64,000 bases of DNA from Bacteroidaceae bacterium (lineage in GTDB: Bacteria; Bacteroidota; Bacteroidia; Bacteroidales; Bacteroidaceae), in assembly GCA_017542145.1 (NCBI GenBank), contig JAFXXQ010000008.1, positions 1 through 64,000 on the forward strand, read 5' to 3'. This document shows, piece after piece, positions 71 through 53,412 of this stretch. Under the pieces are notes generated by a model, which did no database searches, was not told the origin of the DNA, and worked only from the letters and a program-made list of their open reading frames with translations. The stretch's first letter is position 1. Each line of letters starts with the position of its first letter. The translations under genes were made by a program, and so were the position numbers.

Positions 71-121
71 CAAAGCTATTTATTCTTCATTTTTCATTCT
101 TCATTCTTCATTTTTCATTAA
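71..121 (+). repeat. family A repeat arm upstream of argE
   Basis: This T-rich array of 7-base words (CTTCATT and TTTCATT) follows the family A landmark CAAAGCTATTTATTC and ends about 12 bases before the argE start. Only the right arm is present here. The preceding 70 bases contain different AT-rich words (ATTTGACGATT, AATTCCTAATTCCC) that look like debris of other repeat families. Confidence 0.8.
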
Positions 122-133
122 AAAGAATTTTTT

Positions 134-1174
134 ATGATTAACTTGCTCAAATCCCTCATATCCATTCCCTCCTTCAGCCGCGAGGAGGCGGCGGCGTGCG
201 ACTGCCTCGAAGCATGGATGAAGGCACATGGCCTTGATGTCCATCGTAAGGGAAACAACGTATGGGTCGAGCAGCCCGGACGGGGCGACGGCCGCCCTGT
301 CGTCCTCCTCAACGCCCACCTCGACACCGTGCGCCCCGCCGCCGGCTACACCCGCGACCCCTTCACCCCCGTCCTTGAGGGCGACCGCCTCTACGGCCTC
401 GGCAGCAACGACGACGGCGGCTCGCTCGTCGCCCTGCTGGCCGCCTTCATCGAGCTGTCGCGACTGCCCCAGCCCTGCCGCTTCGTCTATAGCGCCACCG
501 CCGAGGAGGAGGTCTGCGGACAAGGAGGCATCGAGAGCATCCTCGACGACATCGGGCCCTTCGACCTCGGCATCATCGGCGAGCCCACCCAGATGCAGAT
601 GGCCGTGGCCGAGCGCGGGCTGATGGTGCTCGACTGCACCGCCCACGGCCGCAGCGGACACGCCGCCCGCGGCGAGGGTGTCAACGCTCTATACGAGGCC
701 ATCGAGGATATCAACTGGTTCCGCACCTACAGATTCCCCCAAACGTCCGACTATCTTGGCGAGGTGAAGATGACCGTCACTATGATCCAATGCGGCACAC
801 AGCACAACGTCGTGCCCGACCGTTGCACCTACGTCGTCGATGTCCGTCCCAACGGCATGTACACCAACCCCGAGATACTTGCCGAGATACAAGCCCACGT
901 CCGTTCGGACGTCGTGCCCCGTTCGCTGCGTCACAGCAGTTCCCACATACCCCTCGCCCACCCCGTCGTGCAGCGAGGACTCAGCCTCGGCCTCACCCCC
1001 TTCGGCTCCCCCACCACCAGCAACCAAACCGTCCTCCCCATGTTTACCACCCTCAAAATCGGCCCTGGCGACTCCGCCCGTTCCCACACCGCCGACGAGT
1101 ACATCCGCCTAAGCGAAATCCAGCAAGGCACAGAAATCTATGTCAAGCTGCTCAATCAGCTTGAAATAGAATGA
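134..1174 (+). CDS. argE: M20 family deacylase, ArgE-like (N-acyl-ornithine/citrulline deacylase)
   Basis: This zinc-dependent M20 amidohydrolase of 346 residues probably removes the N-acyl group in arginine biosynthesis. Metal-site signatures are in order: NAHLDT (about residue 60), GSNDDGG (about 95), the catalytic Glu pair in ATAEEEVCG (about 120), GEPT (about 150) and the C-terminal SHTADEY His (about 319). In Bacteroides the pathway runs through N-succinylated intermediates, so the substrate may be N-succinylcitrulline rather than N-acetylornithine; this is inferred from family knowledge. argH follows 0.5 kb downstream on the same strand, which supports the arginine role. The ATG at 134 fits the family N-terminus. 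The stop codon lies inside the left arm of a family A repeat, so the repeat abuts the reading frame exactly. Confidence 0.85.
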   Translation: MINLLKSLISIPSFSREEAAACDCLEAWMKAHGLDVHRKGNNVWVEQPGRGDGRPVVLLNAHLDTVRPAAGYTRDPFTPVLEGDRLYGLGSNDDGGSLVALLAAFIELSRLPQPCRFVYSATAEEEVCGQGGIESILDDIGPFDLGIIGEPTQMQMAVAERGLMVLDCTAHGRSGHAARGEGVNALYEAIEDINWFRTYRFPQTSDYLGEVKMTVTMIQCGTQHNVVPDRCTYVVDVRPNGMYTNPEILAEIQAHVRSDVVPRSLRHSSSHIPLAHPVVQRGLSLGLTPFGSPTTSNQTVLPMFTTLKIGPGDSARSHTADEYIRLSEIQQGTEIYVKLLNQLEIE

Positions 1175-1624
1175 AAAATGAAAAATGAAGAATGAAAAAT
1201 AAATAGCCCTGAATATGGAAAACGAAGATAATATCGTTTTATCAAAAGCAGAAGCTTATGCCATACGAATCATTAAACTCTATCGTTATTTACAAAAAGA
1301 AAAAAACGAAAAGATAATGTCGAATCAACTCCTCCGATGCGGAACAAGTGTAGGCGCGAACCTGACAGAAAGCAATGATTCTATCAGCCACGCCGAGTTT
1401 ATTGCCAAAACACAGATTGCTTTGAAGGAGTGTTCAGAATCCCTCTACTGGTTAAAATTATTGGTTTCAACAGAATACATCACTCAAATCCAATACGAGT
1501 CCATCTTTTCGGACGGCAAGGATATCCAACGTCTCCTTATAGCCATCCTTAAATCAGCAAAAACCAACCCGCGTAATTGGTAATACATTTTATTTTTCAT
1601 TCTTCATTCTTCATTTTTCATTAA
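1171..1624 (+). repeat. family A inverted-arm element with a four-helix-bundle gene as cargo
   Basis: The left arm (1171-1207, words ATGAAAA and ATGAAGA) and right arm (1588-1622, words TTTCATT and CTTCATT) are near-perfect reverse complements. Other family A copies in this window carry a loop of only about 50 bases between the same arms. Here the loop is replaced by a complete 122-codon gene in the same orientation. The element occupies the whole gap between argE and argH. Confidence 0.8.
1215..1583 (+). CDS. four-helix-bundle protein (23S rRNA intervening-sequence protein family)
   Basis: This 122-residue protein belongs to the small four-helix-bundle family first seen in 23S rRNA intervening sequences. 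Family hallmarks are an N-terminal helix with Y-A-I-R, the core RCGTSVGANLTES (about residues 42-54), then a helix with AKTQIALKECSESLYWLKLL. Its length matches the family norm. Biochemical function is unknown; relatives include Avd, the accessory protein of diversity-generating retroelements, but no reverse transcriptase is present here. It is flanked on both sides by inverted family A arms, as rRNA intervening sequences are flanked by complementary stems. Its codon use is plainer and more AT-rich than that of argE and argH, which suggests independent arrival. Confidence 0.9.
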   Translation: MENEDNIVLSKAEAYAIRIIKLYRYLQKEKNEKIMSNQLLRCGTSVGANLTESNDSISHAEFIAKTQIALKECSESLYWLKLLVSTEYITQIQYESIFSDGKDIQRLLIAILKSAKTNPRNW

Positions 1625-1631
1625 AAAAGTC

Positions 1632-2927
1632 ATGAAATTATGGGACAAAGGCTACGAGCCTGACAAACTGATAGAGAACTTCACCGTAGGTAACGACCGT
1701 GAGCTTGACCTGCAGCTGGCGCGTTACGACGTGCTGGGCAGCATGGCCCACATCCGTATGTTGGAGTCCATCGGGCTGCTCGGCAAGGACGAGCTCCCCC
1801 TGCTGCTCGATGGTCTGCAGGCTATCCTCGATGACATCGATGCCGGACGCTTCACCATCGAGCCCGGTGTCGAAGACGTCCACAGCGAGGTCGAGCAGCT
1901 GCTCACCCAGCGTCTGGGCGACATCGGCAAGAAGATCCACTCCGGCCGCAGCCGCAACGACCAGGTGCTCGTTGACCTCAAGCTCTTCTTCCGCGACCGC
2001 TTGAAGGACACCGCCCGCGACGTCGCCACCCTCTTCCACCGCTTGCAAACCCTCAGCGAGCAGTACAAGGATGTCCTCATGCCCGGCTATACCCATCTGC
2101 AGGTAGCTATGCCCTCGTCGTTCGGCCTGTGGTTTGGTGCCTATGCCGAGACGCTCGTTGACGACGTCCGTCTGCTTGCGGCTGCCTACGCCATAGCCGA
2201 CCAGAACCCGTTAGGTAGTGCTGCCGGCTATGGCTCGTCGTTTCCTCTCAACCGCACCATGACTACGGAGCTACTCGGTTTCTCCACGCTCCACTACAAC
2301 GTCGTCGCTGCCCAGATGAGTCGCGGCAAGACCGAGCGCGCCATCGCCGCTGCCCTCAGCGCCATTGCAGCCACCCTCGGACGCTTCGCTATGGATGTCT
2401 GCCTCTTCATGTGCCAGAACTTCGCCTTCATCTCCTTCCCCGACGAGCTCACTACAGGCAGCAGCATCATGCCCCACAAGAAGAACCCCGATGTCTTTGA
2501 GATTATGCGCGCCAAGTGCAATCGTCTGCAGAGCCTCCCCAACGAAGTCGCCCTTATGACCACCAACCTCCCCCTCGGCTACCAGCGCGACTTCCAGCTG
2601 CTCAAGGACGCCCTCTTCCCCGCCTTCGGCCAGCTTTCCGGCTGTCTGCAGCTCTGCGACTTCATGCTGCAGCACATCCGCGTCCGTCGCGACATCCTCG
2701 ACGACCCTCGCTACGACTACCTCTTTACGGTCGAGGACGTCAACCGCCTCGTCCTCGACGGCACCCCCTTCCGCGAGGCCTACAAGGCTGTCGGCCACGC
2801 CGTTCAGAACGGCACCTATAGCCCCACGCGTACCGTCAGCCATACCCACGAAGGATCCATCGGCAACCTCTGTACCGAAGCCATACGCCAAAAATTCGAC
2901 GATGTCTTCGCCCCCTTCCGGCAATAA
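1632..2927 (+). CDS. argH: argininosuccinate lyase
   Basis: This enzyme cleaves argininosuccinate to arginine and fumarate, the last step of arginine synthesis, in the cytoplasm. The 431 residues begin with the family start (MKLWDKGY), carry HSGRSRNDQ (about residue 107), the TH of GYTHLQVAMP (about 156), and the fumarase/aspartase signature GSSIMPHKKNPD (about 277-288). The length is slightly short for the family (about 450-460) but nothing central is missing. The ATG at 1632 follows the right arm of the family A element by nine bases, so the leader is repeat-derived. It probably functions with the argE-like gene upstream. Confidence 0.97.
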   Translation: MKLWDKGYEPDKLIENFTVGNDRELDLQLARYDVLGSMAHIRMLESIGLLGKDELPLLLDGLQAILDDIDAGRFTIEPGVEDVHSEVEQLLTQRLGDIGKKIHSGRSRNDQVLVDLKLFFRDRLKDTARDVATLFHRLQTLSEQYKDVLMPGYTHLQVAMPSSFGLWFGAYAETLVDDVRLLAAAYAIADQNPLGSAAGYGSSFPLNRTMTTELLGFSTLHYNVVAAQMSRGKTERAIAAALSAIAATLGRFAMDVCLFMCQNFAFISFPDELTTGSSIMPHKKNPDVFEIMRAKCNRLQSLPNEVALMTTNLPLGYQRDFQLLKDALFPAFGQLSGCLQLCDFMLQHIRVRRDILDDPRYDYLFTVEDVNRLVLDGTPFREAYKAVGHAVQNGTYSPTRTVSHTHEGSIGNLCTEAIRQKFDDVFAPFRQ

Positions 2928-3673: not shown

Positions 3674-4007
3674 ACAAATGAAGAATGAAAAATGAAGAAT
3701 AAATAGCTTTGCAAGCGGAGATAGCCGTTGAGGGGAAAAACTGAATACGAAACATTTTAGAATTTGGGGCAATGGTGTCGATGGCATCGACAACAAAATC
3801 GTAAGGAGTATCGAGCAGGGAGGGCACGTCGTCCTCCGTGAGATAGACGGGGAGCGTGTGGAGCGTCAACGCAGGGTTGATGGCAAGCAGACGATCCTGC
3901 ATGACATCGGTTTTCAGACGACCTATAGTGGCATGCGTAGCAGGGAGCAGGCGCTCCATCTTATCGGGGCCAAAAAGCTGTTCTGTCCGTTGCTGCCAGG
4001 AGGTCAT
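3648..4007 (-). pseudogene. tcdA-like (ThiF/E1 family) remnant with internal deletion and repeat-derived tail
   Basis: The first 84 codons (3756-4007) match tRNA threonylcarbamoyladenosine dehydratase: LFGPDKMERL, then LPATHATIGRLKTDVMQDRL, then a DYVVDAIDT-like segment. Normally about 45 residues separate the first two blocks, holding the ATP-binding GxGxxG Rossmann loop; these are missing. After APNSK the frame passes into a family A repeat and encodes [19 protein letters not shown], which resembles the repeat-derived leaders at 15701 and 53307. The C-terminal half of the protein is absent. ATP binding is lost, so I call it a pseudogene. Its start overlaps the stop of the antiporter gene by four bases. 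Confidence 0.75.
3674..3765 (-). repeat. family A element between tcdA remnant and ABC gene
   Basis: Read on the minus strand, this has the family A core (AATGTTTCGTATTC, then CGCTTGCAAAGCTATTTATTC) and the right arm of CTTCATT/TTTCATT words ending at the ABC start. The left arm is missing; in its place the tcdA-like reading frame runs directly into the core. Insertion with loss of flanking sequence would explain the truncated tcdA. Confidence 0.75.
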
Positions 4008-6113: not shown

Positions 6114-6234
6114 GTTTATTTGCAATTATCCGAGCCGCAGCCTATCTAAAAGCCCCCAAAGGGGGATTAAAGTTACTATTATTTTAAGACACTCGCAAAC
6201 GTTTAGCAAATTTAGCAACGACAACGCCTAACGC

Positions 6235-6323
6235 TGGAAAAATTCCAGCCTGTGGAATTTAAATTCCATTTGATGGAACTTTTTTTCCAGCCTATGGAAC
6301 TTTTTTTCCATTTGATGGAATTC
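6235..6323 (+). repeat. array of four TTCCA-N5-TGGAA palindromes with 21-base period (copy 1)
   Basis: Four 15-base palindromic modules start at 6243, 6264, 6285 and 6306, exactly 21 bases apart. The inner five bases alternate GCCTG, TTTGA, GCCTA, TTTGA; linkers are six bases of T or A. An identical array in inverse orientation lies at 51538-51634, 45 kb away. Confidence 0.95.
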
Positions 6324-6429
6324 TGGGGGAAGCAAGGGCTGTCGGGACTGTCGCTAAAGCGACACGTAGCTGTGCCTTCTTTGTTTGACTGGAATCAAGG
6401 GTGCAGAAAAAAATGTTATTTTCTTCTTT

Positions 6430-12867: not shown

Positions 12868-13896
12868 ATGAAGATAGCGATAGTGGGCGCCAGCGGCGCT
12901 GTGGGGCAGGAGTTGCTCCGTGTTTTGAGTGAGCGGGAGTTCCCCGTCGATGAACTGCTGCTGTTCGGCAGCGAGCGTAGCGCAGGACGCACATACTCTT
13001 TCCGAGGCAAGGAGGTAACGGTCCGTCTGCTTCAGGATAACGACGATTTCAAGAGCGTCGATTACGCTTTCGTATCGGCCGGAGCGGGGACGTCGCGCAC
13101 GTTTGCCGACACCATCACGCGCCACGGCACCGTGATGATTGACAACAGCAGCGCCTTCCGTATGGACGACGACGTGCCTCTGGTGGTTCCCGAGGTGAAC
13201 GCGGCGGATGCGCTGGTGCGCCCGCGCGGCATCATCGCCAACCCCAACTGCACGACCATACAGATGGTCGTCGCGCTGAAGGCCATCGAAGGGCTGAGCC
13301 ACATCCGCCGCGTCCACGTCAGCACCTACCAGGCGGCCAGCGGCGCCGGCGCACAGGCCATGGCCGAGCTCTATGAGCAGTACCGCCAGGTGCTGGCGGG
13401 CGAGCCGGTGACCGTCAGCAAGTTCGCCTATCAGCTGGCCTTCAACCTCATCCCGCAGATCGACGTCTTCACCGACAACGGTTACACGAAGGAGGAGATG
13501 AAGATGTACAACGAGACGCGCAAGATCATGCACTCGGACATCCGCGTGAGCGCCACGTGCGTGCGCGTGCCCGCCCTCCGCAGCCATAGCGAAGCGCTGT
13601 GGGTGGAGACGGAGCGCCCCATCAGCGTCGCCGAGGCCCGCGAAGCCTTCGCCAAGGGCGAGGGACTGGTGCTGATGGACAACCCGGGGGAGAAGAACCT
13701 TGTGGATGGCGTGCCCGTGGAGTACCCCATGCCGTTGTTCCTGTCCGGAAAAGACCCCGTCTATGTAGGGCGCATCCGCAAGGACCTGACCGACGACTGC
13801 GGCCTCTCGTTCTGGATCGTAGGCGACCAGATTAAGAAGGGCGCCGCCCTCAACGCCGTCCAGATTGCGGAATACCTTTTGAGAGTTAAGAATTAA
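12868..13896 (+). CDS. asd: aspartate-semialdehyde dehydrogenase
   Basis: This 342-residue cytoplasmic enzyme reduces aspartyl phosphate to aspartate semialdehyde for lysine, threonine, methionine and diaminopimelate synthesis. It begins with the NADP-binding motif [13 protein letters not shown] (about 4-16), has the active-site Cys in NPNCTT (about 127-132), GAGAQAM (about 159) and the substrate-binding region [12 protein letters not shown] (about 233-244). Length is normal. The stop is followed within a few bases by a family A repeat and then pruA. Confidence 0.97.
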
Positions 13897-14007
13897 TAAT
13901 GAAGAATGAAAAATGAAAAATAAAATGTTTTGTAATCCGCAAGTCCTTTCCTTTGCTGGCTCTTCCGCTGACAGGCTATTTATTCTTCATTCTTCATTTT
14001 CATTAAG
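13897..14007 (+). repeat. family A element, complete, between asd and pruA
   Basis: The left arm (13897-13925), a loop beginning AATGTTTTGTAATCCGC, and the right arm (13975-14007, CTATTTATTCTTCATTC...) make a full hairpin. The loop, read from its ATG, would give MFCNPQVLSFAGSSADRLF, recognisably the leader peptide of the 15701 and 53307 genes. Here it is not fused to a gene. Confidence 0.85.
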
Positions 14008-15666: not shown

Positions 15667-15678
15667 AGACGTCACTAC

Positions 15679-15815
15679 AATGAAGAATGAAAAATGAAGA
15701 ATGAAAAATAGAATGTTTCGCAAATCAATATCCCAGTTCGCAGGCGTTTCCGTTTGCAAAGCCATTTATTTTTCATTCTTCATTTTTCTTTTTTCATTTT
15801 TATTTGTTTCATGTC
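15679..15815 (+). repeat. family A element forming the leader of the CotH lipoprotein gene
   Basis: The left arm (15679-15710) contains the start codon ATGAAAAATAGA. The loop (15711-15760) has the core AATGTTTCGCAAATC and GTTTGCAAAGCCATTTATT, and the T-rich right arm encodes the hydrophobic stretch FSFFIFLFSFLF. The lipobox cysteine falls immediately after the arm. Confidence 0.85.
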
Positions 15816-33138: not shown

Positions 33139-33213
33139 GGGCGAATAGCGCAGTTGGTTCAGAGCGTCTGCCTTACAAGCAGAAGGTCGGGGGTTCGAAT
33201 CCCTCTTCGCCCA
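33139..33213 (+). tRNA. tRNA-Val (anticodon TAC)
   Basis: A 75-base cloverleaf has acceptor GGGCGAA/TTCGCCC, the anticodon arm TCTGC-CTTACAA-GCAGA with TAC at 33174-33176, and a T arm with GGTTCGAATCC. CCA is not encoded. The long minus-strand frame across it is the familiar artefact of an antisense tRNA. Confidence 0.97.
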
Positions 33214-33225
33214 CCTAAGCAGAAG

Positions 33226-33390
33226 ACAACAAGTCAATAGGTCAACAGGTCAACAAGTCAACAGGAGACTATGCAGTCCGTTCAGAACTTGTTGACCTGT
33301 TGAGCTACGCTCGACCTCCGTCGCGACTCGGGATAATTGGAGTAAACTCCATTTTCCGCTCGCTGCTCCATCGGTTGACTTGTTGACACG
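33226..33390. repeat. family B element (octamer arms plus core) between tRNA-Val and trpS
   Basis: A forward GTCAACAR array (about 33230-33264) is followed by an unrelated loop, an inverted array (33288-33305), the core in minus orientation (33306-33372) and another inverted array (33373-33388). The core includes TGGAGTTTACTCCA and GTCGCGAC on its own plus strand. It is about 96% identical by eye to the copy at 34573-34650. Confidence 0.9.
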
Positions 33391-33417
33391 TCGAACCCAA
33401 AGAAAAGAGAACACCAA

Positions 33418-34404
33418 ATGGAAACAGTATTAAGCGGCATCCGCCCCACAGGCAACCTCCACATCGGCAACTACTACGGCGCAGTCACCAGTTTTGTCAG
33501 ACTGCAGGAAGAGTACAAGTGTTTTTTCTTCATCGCCGACTGGCACTCCCTGACTACCCATCCGAAACCGGAGGACATCCGACGGAGCACACGCACCATA
33601 CTGGCCGAATACCTTGCCTGCGGCATCGACCCCCAGAAGAGCACCATCTACATCCAGAGCGATGTGAAGGAGGTGCTGGAGCTGTACCTTTATTTAAATA
33701 TGAACGCCTATCTGGGCGAGCTGGAGCGCGTAACCTCCTTCAAGGAGAAGGCTCGCAAGCAGCCCGATAACGTCAATGCAGGCCTGCTCACCTACCCCAC
33801 CCTGATGGCTGCCGACATCCTTATCCACCGTGCTAACAAGGTGCCCGTGGGCAAGGATCAGGAACAGAATATGGAAATGGCCCGCCTCTACGCCAACCGT
33901 TTCAACAACAAATACGGCAAGGAGTACTTCCCCATCCCGCAGTCGTTCAGCCTTGTGGGACAGGGTGTGAAGATTCCCGGCCTCGACGGCTCAGGCAAGA
34001 TGGGCAAGAGCGAAGGCAACTGCATCTATCTGTGTGAGGAGCCCTCGTCTATTCGCAAAAAGGTGATGCGTGCCGTTACCGACGCTGGCCCACAGGCGCT
34101 TAACAGCGAGAAGCCCGAAGTCATTCAGAACCTCTTCACGCTGCTGAGCGTTGTTTCCAGCAAGGAGACTTATGACTACTTCGACGAGAAGTGGAACGAC
34201 ATGACACTACGCTACGGCGACCTGAAGAAACAGCTGGCTGAGGACCTCATCAACGCCCTCGCTCCCATCCGCGAACGCATCCTCGACTTCAGCTCCGATG
34301 CCGAGCGCCTCGACCGCATCGCCCTCGAAGGTGCCGAGAAGGCCCGCGAGAGCGCAGCCAAGACCATCCGCGACGTGCGCGAAATCATCGGCTTCCGCGT
34401 CTGA
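33418..34404 (+). CDS. trpS: tryptophanyl-tRNA synthetase
   Basis: This 328-residue class I synthetase charges tRNA-Trp. The HIGH motif appears as [11 protein letters not shown] (about 12-22), with [11 protein letters not shown]-like [13 protein letters not shown] (about 122) and the KMSKS loop as GKMGKSEGN (about 196-204). Length is normal for a bacterial TrpS. The stop overlaps the ATG of the trmN6-like gene (TGATG), indicating translational coupling. The leader lies directly behind a family B repeat. Confidence 0.97.
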
Positions 34405-35275
34405 TGTCCGCCAGCCACTTCTCCTTCAAGCAATTCACTATCCAGCAGGAGCTCTGCGCCATGAAAGTAGGCACCGACGGCGTCCTGCTGGGGGCGTGGG
34501 CGGATGTAAAGTCAACAAGTCAACAAGTCAACAGGTCAACGGGTCAACAGGTCAACAGGTCAACGGGTCAACCGATGGAGCAGCGAGCGGAGAATGGAGT
34601 TTACTCCAATTATCCCGAGTCGCGACAGAGGTCGAGCGAAGCTCAACAAGCATCTTGGATGTAGGTACGGGCACAGGTCTCATCGCCCTGATGGCTGCCC
34701 AACGCAACCCTTCAGCACACATCACAGCTATTGACATCGACCCTGATGCTGTCCGTCAGGCGCAGGAGAATGTCGGCGCTTCTCCTTTTGCCAATCGTAT
34801 CATCGTACGGCAAGCTGATTTCAGAAAGGGAGTTGTAGGATATTTCGATGCCATCCTCTGCAACCCGCCCTATTTCGAAAACGCCCTGCGCTGCCCCGAT
34901 TTCTCTCGCTCCACAGCCCGTCACAGCGATACGCTCTCCTTCGACGACCTTGCTCTGAACGTCTCCTCGCAGCTTCTTCCATTGGGCACCCTTTCTGTCA
35001 TTATTCCTGCTGAACGTCGCATGGATATGATTGCAGCCTGCGCCACACACAATCTGACCCTTGTCCGCGAGACCTACGTCCGTACCCTCCCCACCAAACA
35101 TCCGAAAAGGGTTTTGCTGGAATTTAGACTAGAAGAACTATCCAGTCTAATCAGACCAGGAGGGCTAGAAGAAATAGATAATCCATCCCCCGCCACGCTT
35201 ACTATCGAGGCAACTCCCGGAGTCCCCACGACAGAATTCAAGGCGTTGTTGAAGGAATTCTATCTGAAATTCTGA
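34404..35275 (+). pseudogene. trmN6-like tRNA methyltransferase gene split by a family B repeat insertion
   Basis: Codons from 34404 give a perfect family N-terminus ([30 protein letters not shown]). The frame then enters a family B element (34509-34655) and stops at 34664. The rest of the protein, beginning [18 protein letters not shown] and containing NPPYF (about 34865) and a complete C-terminal half, continues in a different frame to 35275. The insert length is not a multiple of three, so it shifts frame exactly between the substrate-binding N-terminus and SAM motif I. The intact gene would encode an adenine-N6 methyltransferase for tRNA-Val position 37. A reader downstream of the insert finds only an internal Met in the middle of motif I. 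An assembly error in the repeat is possible. Confidence 0.82.
34509..34655 (+). repeat. family B element inserted in the trmN6-like gene
   Basis: Eight tandem octamers (GTCAACAA, GTCAACAG, GTCAACGG) run from 34511 to 34574, followed by the core (34573-34645) and a short terminal TCAACAAG. The core matches the copy at 33306-33372 in inverse orientation with about three differences. Confidence 0.92.
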
Positions 35276-51420: not shown

Positions 51421-51806
51421 ATTCTGATTATTCGCCGGAGACATCCCCTACCTTTTTATCCTACGCATTTTGTTTCCACGACAGGTTGCAGGCATCACGT
51501 CAGCCCACTTCATCAACTGTCCAAGCAGAATCAAATTCCGTAAAAATTCCATCAAATGGAAAAAAAGTTCCATAGGCTGGAAAAAAAGTTCCATCAAATG
51601 GAATTTAAATTCCACAGGCTGGAATTTTTCCAGAGTCTGATGTTGCAGCAACCAAGTTTGTCGCTTGCCAGATGGCCATAAAGGATATTATTGCGGAAAT
51701 CAAATAATCTGTATTGGTTCCATACATTTTTCAACGAGAATCTGCTTATAAACCGTCCTTCCCTTAAATTTTACAAAAAAAGTGAAGATAATTCAGAAAG
51801 AATCCG
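51421..51806. other. gap before the PPIase operon
   Basis: No gene is supported. It contains the inverse copy of the TTCCA/TGGAA array and the promoter region. The open frame at 51448-51651 on the minus strand is created by the array. Confidence 0.7.
51537..51634 (-). repeat. array of four TTCCA-N5-TGGAA palindromes with 21-base period (copy 2)
   Basis: The reverse complement is identical to 6235-6320 through all four modules, including linkers. The flanking DNA is unrelated, so the array was copied as a unit or is under constraint. Confidence 0.95.
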
Positions 51807-51852: not shown

Positions 51853-53289
51853 ATGAAACAATTTTTGGTTACACTAGCCGTCCTGACGGCTACCTTATGC
51901 ACATCGGCACAGACGAAAGACGACCCTATCGTAATGACAGTAAACGGTGTGGATGTTCCTCGTTCTGAATTTGAGTATTCGTATAACAAGAACAATACCG
52001 AGACCGTGCTCGACCGCAAGTCACTCGACGAGTACGTGGAGCTGTTCATCAACTACAAGCTGAAGGTGGCTGCAGCTGCCGAAGAGCGCATGGACACGTC
52101 GGCAGCCTTCATCAAGGAGCAACAAGAGTACCGCACACAGCAGGCTGAAGCCTATCTGGTGGACTCGACGTTCATTGAGGAACAGGCGCGCGAAGTGTAC
52201 GAGCAGACGGCCCAGCGCATAGGCGAGGACGGGCTGATACTGGTGTCGCACATCCTGCTGCGTCTGTCGCAGGATGCCGACGACGCAGCTCAGGCTGCGG
52301 CCAAGGTGCGTGCCGACTCCATCTACGCCGCCCTGAAGGCAGGTGCCGACTTCGCCGAACTGGCCAGGAAAGTGTCGCAGGATCCTGGCAGCGCCGCAAA
52401 GGGTGGCCAGCTGCCCTGGATTCAGAAGGGGCAGACCATCCCCGACTTCGAGCGCGTGGCCTTCTCACTCCAGCCCGGCGAGCTGTCTGAGCCCGTACTC
52501 TCAGCGGTTGGCTACCACATCATCAAGATGGACGAGCGGAAACAGTTTGAGCCTTATGAGTTCCACCGCAAAAGCATCATCGAATGGCTGAACCAGCGGG
52601 GCATTACCGCAGCAGCCAAGCAGTCGATGGGAAAAAAGCTTGCCGCCCAGATGGGTGGCGACGTCACCCCTCAGGAGGCGCTGGACAAGGCCGAGCAGGA
52701 ACTTGACGCCAAATACCCCGACTTCCACTACCTGATGAAAGAGTTCCACGACGGCAGCATGCTCTACGAAATCAGCAACCGCGAGGTGTGGGACAAGGCC
52801 GCCAAGGACGAGAAAGGGCTTGAGAAATTCTTCAAGAAGCACAAGAAACAGTATGCCTACGACGAACCTGTCTATCGCGGCATCATCGTCAACTGCACCA
52901 CAGCCGACGTACTTGAGAAGGTGAAGAAGAGCGTCAAGGGCAAGAAGGAGGCGGAATGGGTACAGACCATCCGCGAGCAGTTCAACAACGACTCGACGTT
53001 GCAGGTGAAGATTATCCGCGGTCCCTTCAAGGCAGGGAAAAACAAGTATGCCGACTACTACATCTTCAAGACTACGCAGGAGCAGCCCGAGGCCATCGAG
53101 GGCTTCCCCGTCGTGGGCGTCATCGGCAAGCTGCAGAAGAAAGGCCCCGATTCCTACGAGGATGTACGCGGAGCCGTCACCACCGACTACCAGAACTATC
53201 TGGAAAAGGAGTGGGTGAAGGTGCTGCGTCGTAAGTACACCTGGACCGTCTATCCCGATGTGCTGAACACGGTGAACAACCACAAATGA
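51853..53289 (+). CDS. periplasmic parvulin-type peptidylprolyl isomerase (SurA/PpiC/PpiD-like)
   Basis: This 478-residue exported chaperone starts at the ATG beginning MKQFLVTLAVLTATLCTSAQ, a cleavable signal. An N-terminal helical chaperone part (about 20-120) precedes a parvulin domain (about 120-225: VSHILLRLSQDADDAAQ, FAELARKVSQDPGSAAKGGQLPWIQKG, GYHIIKMDERK). The C-terminal 200 residues are SurA/PpiD-like helices. It probably assists outer-membrane protein folding. It is the first of three consecutive PPIase-type genes; the next starts 17 bases later with a family A repeat between. Confidence 0.88.
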   Translation: MKQFLVTLAVLTATLCTSAQTKDDPIVMTVNGVDVPRSEFEYSYNKNNTETVLDRKSLDEYVELFINYKLKVAAAAEERMDTSAAFIKEQQEYRTQQAEAYLVDSTFIEEQAREVYEQTAQRIGEDGLILVSHILLRLSQDADDAAQAAAKVRADSIYAALKAGADFAELARKVSQDPGSAAKGGQLPWIQKGQTIPDFERVAFSLQPGELSEPVLSAVGYHIIKMDERKQFEPYEFHRKSIIEWLNQRGITAAAKQSMGKKLAAQMGGDVTPQEALDKAEQELDAKYPDFHYLMKEFHDGSMLYEISNREVWDKAAKDEKGLEKFFKKHKKQYAYDEPVYRGIIVNCTTADVLEKVKKSVKGKKEAEWVQTIREQFNNDSTLQVKIIRGPFKAGKNKYADYYIFKTTQEQPEAIEGFPVVGVIGKLQKKGPDSYEDVRGAVTTDYQNYLEKEWVKVLRRKYTWTVYPDVLNTVNNHK

Positions 53290-53297
53290 AATTCTAT

Positions 53298-53412
53298 AAG
53301 TGAAGAATGAGAAATAGATTGTTTCGTAAATCAACATCTTTGTCTGCAGGCGTTCCAGCTTGCAGAACTATCTATTTCTCATTCTTCTTTTTTCTTTTTT
53401 CGTTCTTATTAG
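53298..53412 (+). repeat. family A element forming the leader of the SurA-like lipoprotein gene
   Basis: The left arm (53298-53318) contains the start codon ATGAGAAATAGA. The core ATTGTTTCGTAAATC and GCTTGCAGAACTATCTATT follow, then the T-rich right arm to about 53405 encodes FSFFFFLFSFLL. The lipobox cysteine is directly after it. Confidence 0.85.

Follow-up and report, generated by a model that had tools for sequence, protein, structure and literature searches.

Inverted heptamer arms around S23-type four-helix genes suggest a widespread kind of mobile element with gene-less hairpin derivatives

Introduction

A 64,000-nt stretch of a Bacteroidaceae genome (the window; its genome is G000 in our set) holds a small gene of the four-helix family, also called S23 or 23S_rRNA_IVP, between two inverted arrays of a 7-nt word in the gap between an argE-like gene and argH. 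This locus raises the question of whether the gene and its arms form a mobile unit, and whether the gene-less hairpins of the same word found elsewhere in the window derive from it. The original prediction, made from the letters of the window, had proposed both, with the gene-bearing hairpin as the full form and the loop-only copies as non-autonomous derivatives. It had also likened the unit to the hairpin-flanked intervening sequences (IVSs) of 23S rRNA and had set out two comparisons beforehand, i.e., a survey of other family members for inverted arms and a comparison of the argE-argH gap among strains. To our knowledge, this protein family, PF05635, has no assigned function; its structures were solved in 2006-2007. 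Our results support the proposed interpretation and indicate that it was understated.

Results

The element in the argE-argH gap

The four-helix unit occupies the entire argE-argH gap, from the argE stop codon, on which its left arm begins, to 9 nt before argH (Table 1). Both arms are tandem arrays of AATGAA(A/G) with a period of 7, are 34 nt each and 97% complementary, and leave 385 nt between them, in which the S23 gene is the sole ORF. As had been predicted, the gene lies precisely between near-perfect inverted arms of this word family (family A), in the place taken by a short loop in the gene-less hairpins of the same word. The predicted RNA fold of positions 1165 to 1628 pairs the two arms with each other (z = -6.5 versus shuffles).

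Table 1. Features of the argE-argH element, its neighbors, and other family-A copies in the window
Feature	Position	Strand	Description
Upstream host gene, argE-like M20 peptidase	134..1174	+	Named from the original prediction and the sequence, not from a family test
Left (upstream) arm	1170..1203	+	Tandem AATGAA(A/G), period 7, ~5 words; sense strand rich in G; overlap with the argE stop codon
Left inner end, AATAAATAGC	1198..1207	+	Common to gene-less family-A hairpins
Four-helix (S23 / 23S_rRNA_IVP) gene	1215..1583	+	122 aa
Right inner end, AATAAAATGT (inward reading)	1585..1594	-	Common to gene-less family-A hairpins
Right (downstream) arm	1589..1622	-	Left-arm word in reverse complement
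Downstream host gene, argH (argininosuccinate lyase)	1632..2927	+	Named from the original prediction and the sequence, not from a family test
Gene-less family-A hairpin	13886..14000	-	48-nt loop; an R end and an L end
Gene-less family-A hairpin	15677..15802	-	54-nt loop; an R end and an L end
Family-A hairpin copy, decayed	53285..53404		78% identical to the hairpin at 15679 over 130 nt
Solo family-A arm with L end	79..121	-	
Solo family-A arm with L end	3676..3703	+	

Inside the element, we found no transposase, recombinase, or RT, and the window copy has no conspicuous promoter or terminator; no RT, template, or variable repeat (TR/VR pair) was found at the locus. An Rfam search of the window returned a tRNA only and no rRNA at the locus, where the element sits between the argE-like gene and argH. 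A search of a phage collection was without match, and a megablast search of positions 1 to 2930 against plasmids found none.

The gene product matched PF05635 (81.4 bits, E = 6.6e-23, cut-off 33.8) and TIGR02436 (85.8 bits, E = 2.1e-24, cut-off 24). Its AF2 model is a four-helix bundle (pLDDT 94.8), for which the best structure match was 2RLD, the BT_0352 protein (Z = 21.6, 0.7 Å over 112 residues). Further fold matches were 2GSC, the product of XCC0516 (Z = 17.3), and the DGR protein Avd (4DWL/8UB7; Z = 14.5), the latter being a likeness of fold, not of function. A DGR Avd from genome G507 was recognized as bAvd and also passed the PF05635 cut-off; that PF05635 and Avd are homologous was noted earlier (PMC10053308). 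Where measurable, dN/dS was 0.04 to 0.22 for orthologues and diverged copies, indicating that the S23 protein is under purifying selection.

Inverted arms at four-helix genes across bacteria

Arms were scored by local alignment of the 250 nt preceding a gene to the reverse complement of the 250 nt following it, the best match being counted as arms at a score of at least 14. By this measure, 52 of the 61 PF05635 genes in the 19 genomes of the genus had arms, versus 5.9% of mismatched pairings in the same set, which combined the upstream sequence of one element with the downstream sequence of another. All three four-helix genes of G000 had them, with three different words (AATGAAA, GTCAACGG, and AGTTCAT), compared with 10 of 306 other ORFs. 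The arms around the window gene are more than chance.

Arms were present at 17 of 30 genes in a Bacteroidota-wide set, at 48 of 80 in named GTDB genomes (a set that takes in Acidobacteria, Betaproteobacteria, Clostridia, Fibrobacter, Ignavibacteria, Balneolaceae, Paceibacterota, and Gracilibacteria), at 25 of 27 from seven genomes of other phyla, at 22 of 29 in the Gammaproteobacteria (GTDB usage; the class of the betaproteobacterial genome G216), and at 11 of 12 on cyanobacterial plasmids, where 10.6% of cross pairings passed. In the pooled sets, which leave out the cyanobacteria and in which about seven loci were entered twice, arms flanked 164 of 220 four-helix genes (75%) versus 28 of 349 other ORFs of the same loci (8%; odds ratio 34, P = 5e-63). 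The survey set out beforehand therefore came out in favor of the original prediction, most family members having inverted arms, and inverted word arms at S23 genes are a pan-bacterial phenomenon. The other 56 of the 220 genes were without arms at the threshold; since several genes below it still had period-7 words, 75% is likely an underestimate.

A PF05635 match over the cut-off was found in 153 of 198 sampled Bacteroidota genomes and in 72 of 370 genomes in the class of G216 (Gammaproteobacteria, GTDB usage). Longer weak matches (L004, L005, and L022, open frames of >200 aa) were not counted as cassettes, and the multi-copy matches of G507 were set aside as DGR-like cassettes with Avd. In this 1.5-Mb genome, about ten near-identical DGR-like cassettes (L372 to L381), which contain variable-repeat-like sequence, Avd, and an RT start, are clustered around contig ends.

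Rules of the arms and their link to the protein

Among 168 distinct elements, the word period was 7 in 121 and 8 in 15 and was weak in 26. On the sense strand of the same elements, the upstream arm had more G than C in 150 and less in 10 (P = 3e-33), and the G-rich upstream arm showed the same direction in every set. The median number of words per arm was 4.7 (quartiles, 4.1 to 6.0). Within an element, the two arms match, whereas the word varies from lineage to lineage, and therefore the arms change in concert. Mismatch types were used to test for selection on pairing between the arms in the sense RNA and gave no sign of it, G-U not being preferred over A-C (87 versus 117 cases).

For element pairs at non-syntenic sites, word similarity increased with protein identity (r = 0.44), a value reached in 0 of 500 permutations, none of which exceeded 0.108. 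The argE-argH element and L061 of genome G017, for instance, have a common word and 83 to 86% protein identity at different sites. Judging from these sequence comparisons, the element appears to move as a whole unit, with word and protein being co-inherited.

Empty sites and reused sites

Empty sites, sought with the flanks in close relatives, were found for five insertions. L016 of G017 is absent from G001, in which the upstream flank is 98% identical, and from G000, G003, and G016, and the flanking genes nearly abut there. L012 of G001 is absent from G000 and G003; L055 of G017 is absent from G000, G001, G003, and G016, which have short gaps, some with remnants of other words; and L017 of G016 is absent from G001, G017, and G003, with an apparent left arm alone at this site in G000. 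Where G017 has L045, G000 has overlapping flanking genes, G001 has a left-arm remnant beside another hairpin, and G003 has a solo GATTGAA word array without a gene, which also allows for the insertion of a gene into a pre-existing array. No consistent target-site duplication was evident at the insertions compared with empty sites; L045 is compatible with a duplicated ATGA or possibly, instead, with selection keeping stop and start codons.

The argE-argH cassette was found only in G000 and its relative G016. Elsewhere, the gap is a clean 30 nt in G013 and about 60 nt in G003, and it holds a different duplicated unit in G001 and G017. On this comparison, the second of those set out beforehand, the argE-argH insertion is derived. 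The duplicated unit (L068 in G017 and L069 in G001) is a tandem unit of about 180 nt that includes a copy of approximately the first 57 nt of argH and ends in AATTCTTA words; it resembles a duplication tied to word-repeat insertion.

Several elements are syntenic among close species. In three cases (L008/L030, L012/L058, and L002/L032), one intergenic site carries different four-helix elements between species, with different words and with unrelated or diverged proteins (24 to 53% identity; 32% for L008 versus L030 and 24% for L012 versus L058). These recurrent sites suggest insertion hot spots or replacement.

Gene-less hairpins and word families

Both ends could be determined in six family-A hairpins, the gene-bearing copy among them, and each of the six paired an L end (AATAAATAGC) with an R end (AATAAAATGT). 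In 464 kb of G000, 92 word arrays lie outside four-helix elements. The arms of the own genome's four-helix elements were the best match for 40 of these 92 arrays, for 26 of 46 in G011, and for 49 of 113 in G014, with the arms from every other genome matching fewer of them. Among the gene-less hairpins, 21 of 25 had the polarity of the gene-bearing elements, from the outside inwards, and the median loop was 48 nt. These sequence likenesses, together with the shared inner ends, support the proposed status of the loop-only copies as non-autonomous derivatives, which may be moved in trans. That the full form of a mobile hairpin carries the four-helix gene is likewise supported by the empty sites; the part of the proposal that falls is the single parent, each word family having its own gene-bearing form. 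For the G000 families GTTTAACG, AGTTAAG, AGTGAACAGTGATC, and GGAGTTCAG, the gene-bearing form was seen in close relatives only.

A second short hairpin element (CAAATCTTGGAGCAGCGAG...TTCGGTTTTGCCGAG...CAAGATTCAACGG) was observed as an insertion within family-A arms, at one site in each of two species, namely, L092:12609-12882 (G000:C21) and L070 (the left arm of the argE-argH element in G016).

Genomic context

Of 147 gene-bearing elements, 114 lay between two genes co-directional with them and 11 were antisense to both, the neighbors being called from ORFs, some of which may be wrong. The gene-less family-A copies were antisense at least as often as sense (small sample), and this lack of a sense preference makes selection for read-through expression likelier than an insertion rule. 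An rRNA motif scan of the retrieved loci found no S23 genes inside rRNA. In G000, an 89%-complete genome, there were 0 matches to Y1_Tnp (PF01797), and no dedicated RT was found, the sole RT detected being of the retron type and on another contig. S23 elements with word arms were also seen within CRISPR-Cas operons, i.e., L302, L305 (cas6-cas4), and L310 (cas10-cmr3), and another (L367) lies in what is apparently, by translation, the nuoM-nuoN gap of a respiratory operon.

Discussion

The best explanation overall, to which we assign a probability of roughly 0.7, is that the argE-argH element is the gene-bearing and presumably autonomous form of a mobile element, and that the gene-less hairpins are mobilized in trans. 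That there is a mobile unit with derivatives, considered by itself, is very probable. Such an element would consist of n copies of a heptamer word, a short leader, the S23-type four-helix gene, a short tail, and n copies of the reverse-complement word, and would enter intergenic gaps as a single unit, arms included. Because no promoter is recognizable in the element, the surviving gene-bearing copies would be those read through, in sense, from a host operon. The gene-less hairpins, which share the element's word and inner ends, would be derivatives mobilized in trans. We infer that the S23 protein reads the G-rich strand of the word array and brings the two element ends together, with the odds that an S23 ring recognizes the word being about even; speculatively, a five-subunit ring, such as is seen in homologues with solved structures, may take one word per subunit, as compared with the median of ~4.7 words per arm. 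The ends would then be handed to host enzymes, or to a trans-acting RT as with the relative Avd in DGRs. A DNA-only route with host enzymes and a route with an RNA or cDNA intermediate seem equally likely, each at less than even odds. One arm may be copied from the other at each move, which would explain arms that stay matched despite the drift of the word.

The original prediction had likened the unit to IVSs. In Coxiella burnetii, the S23 ORF of the 23S IVS is enclosed by a 28-bp terminal stem and runs in sense relative to the host transcript, and two or three tandem GACAGAT heptamers (variable number) lie just before its start codon (PMC4990558). The IVS sits in helix 45 of 23S rRNA, is excised by RNase III, and has been termed a selfish element, its ORF once being proposed as required for mobility; the solved S23 structure of Xanthomonas is a five-subunit ring (PMC4990558). 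S23-family genes also occur in rRNA insertions of CPR (PMC11270868). The argE-argH element has the same anatomy, with a terminal stem (34 nt, 97%) around its S23 ORF, but the Coxiella IVS is in rRNA, whereas the element lies between protein genes, has dispersed gene-less relatives, and follows a rule, seen across phyla, of two-sided word arms with fixed polarity.

As in REP/RAYT systems and REPINs, inverted units flank the gene and also occur dispersed as gene-less hairpin doublets, but there is no Y1 (HUH) transposase, and the arms are tandem 7- or 8-nt words that vary by element lineage. As in pairs of insertion sequences and MITEs, there are a gene-bearing parent and gene-less derivatives with common ends and terminal inverted repeats, but the element has no transposase, its termini are short-period arrays, and no consistent target duplication was found. 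DGRs provide Avd (4DWL, 8UB7), which has the same fold as, and a detectable sequence relation to, PF05635, but no RT, template, or variable repeat is near the window gene. Being neither an IVS by location, nor REP/RAYT, nor a transposase-bearing IS/MITE pair, nor a DGR, the element would form a class of its own, of which S23-coding IVSs are probably members. The BrickBuilt MITE of P. gingivalis (PMC4596501) was also considered and rejected, as its ends are unrelated and its repeats are 23 nt.

Heptamer repeats have been described in bacteria. PMC4692102 reports GGGAATC heptamers in Xanthomonas, with 70 convergent pairs in Xcc, as generally unlinked to mobile elements, and PMC4679880 reports TAACTGA heptamers in Beggiatoaceae, Cyanobacteria, and a few Bacteroidetes. 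They resemble the arms in their period of 7, their mostly intergenic position, their inverted convergent pairs (Xanthomonas), and their occurrence in Cyanobacteria and Bacteroidetes, and the available parts of both papers make no connection to the S23 gene family. Two gammaproteobacterial loci that we checked for GGGAATC arms had GGGAATA words, not the Xanthomonas word. In the open-access literature, with subscription papers and preprints outside this scope, we found no paper linking heptamer repeats to S23 genes as a mobile-element class.

The word hairpins might instead be an independent class of repeats, grown by slippage or moved otherwise, into which S23 genes insert or inside which they persist. 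This would fit the commonness of gene-less arrays (the 92 in 464 kb of G000), the solo GATTGAA array of G003 where G017 has the gene, and the reuse of sites with unrelated proteins and other words (L008 versus L030 and L012 versus L058). It is nonetheless improbable in our judgment, because the word follows the protein lineage across different genomic sites, the arms keep a fixed polarity with respect to the gene (150 versus 10), arms occur at 75% of S23 genes versus 8% of neighboring ORFs, and several empty sites (L016 and L012) have neither array nor hairpin, with arms and gene appearing together. We find it hardly credible that S23 is an ordinary, immobile host gene, inherited vertically with a long processing or attenuation hairpin: several elements are indeed syntenic in close species and under purifying selection, but empty sites and patchy presence, different proteins at one site, and paralogues with different words in one genome all argue against it. 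Just as little weight is due to a Y1 (HUH) transposase that moves the hairpins in trans, with S23 as a passenger. Such a system would likewise have inverted units both around a gene and scattered as doublets (cf. REPINs, PMC3116915), but the absence of Y1_Tnp from the 89%-complete G000 largely refutes it for this genome, the arms are tandem words rather than REP palindromes, and the word and the S23 protein co-evolve.

In a narrower form of the preferred reading, the unit is a retro-element: RNase III would cut the operon transcript at the hairpin, as it does with 23S IVSs, an RT acting in trans would copy the freed RNA and insert it, and S23 would serve like Avd. The common fold of S23 and Avd (Z = 14.5) and the DGR Avd above the PF05635 cut-off, the excision by RNase III of IVS RNAs of like layout (PMC4990558), the sense orientation in operons (114:11), and the strict strand polarity are consistent with it, but it has no RT partner (one retron-type RT in G000), the arm mismatches have no G-U bias, and the sense bias may come from expression selection, gene-less family-A copies being antisense at least as often (small sample). 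We consider this version doubtful.

The S23 hairpin unit looks like a widespread and largely unrecognized kind of mobile element, one that would account for many scattered heptamer repeats as well. Extending the preferred reading, in which a gene-bearing element mobilizes gene-less hairpins, we lean slightly toward pan-bacterial mobile elements without a known transposase, in which an S23/Avd-type ring would recognize its own word on one strand and diverge together with it, hairpins would be moved in trans, and scattered heptamers and S23 IVSs would be members or descendants. If S23 is a mobile-element protein, PF05635 gains a role, scattered heptamer repeats gain a source, and the origin of S23-coding rRNA intervening sequences becomes testable. 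The IVP genes in cas loci, recorded as a CRISPR-associated function (PMC3936711), would then be passengers, the copy in the cas10-cmr3 gap having word arms. A transposition system that has no recognized catalytic protein and in which end sequence and protein drift together would be new biology.

Two other inverted pairs were observed in the window. The first, 125 nt long and 87% complementary (6207-6331 and 51536-51660), has its copies 45 kb apart and is composed of 21-nt units, TTCCAGCCTGTGGAA / TTCCATTTGATGGAA. The second, 97 nt long and 92% complementary (33298-33394 and 34552-34648), surrounds a 328-aa ORF (33418-34404) and adjoins GTCAACAGG word arrays and a tRNA (33139-33213).
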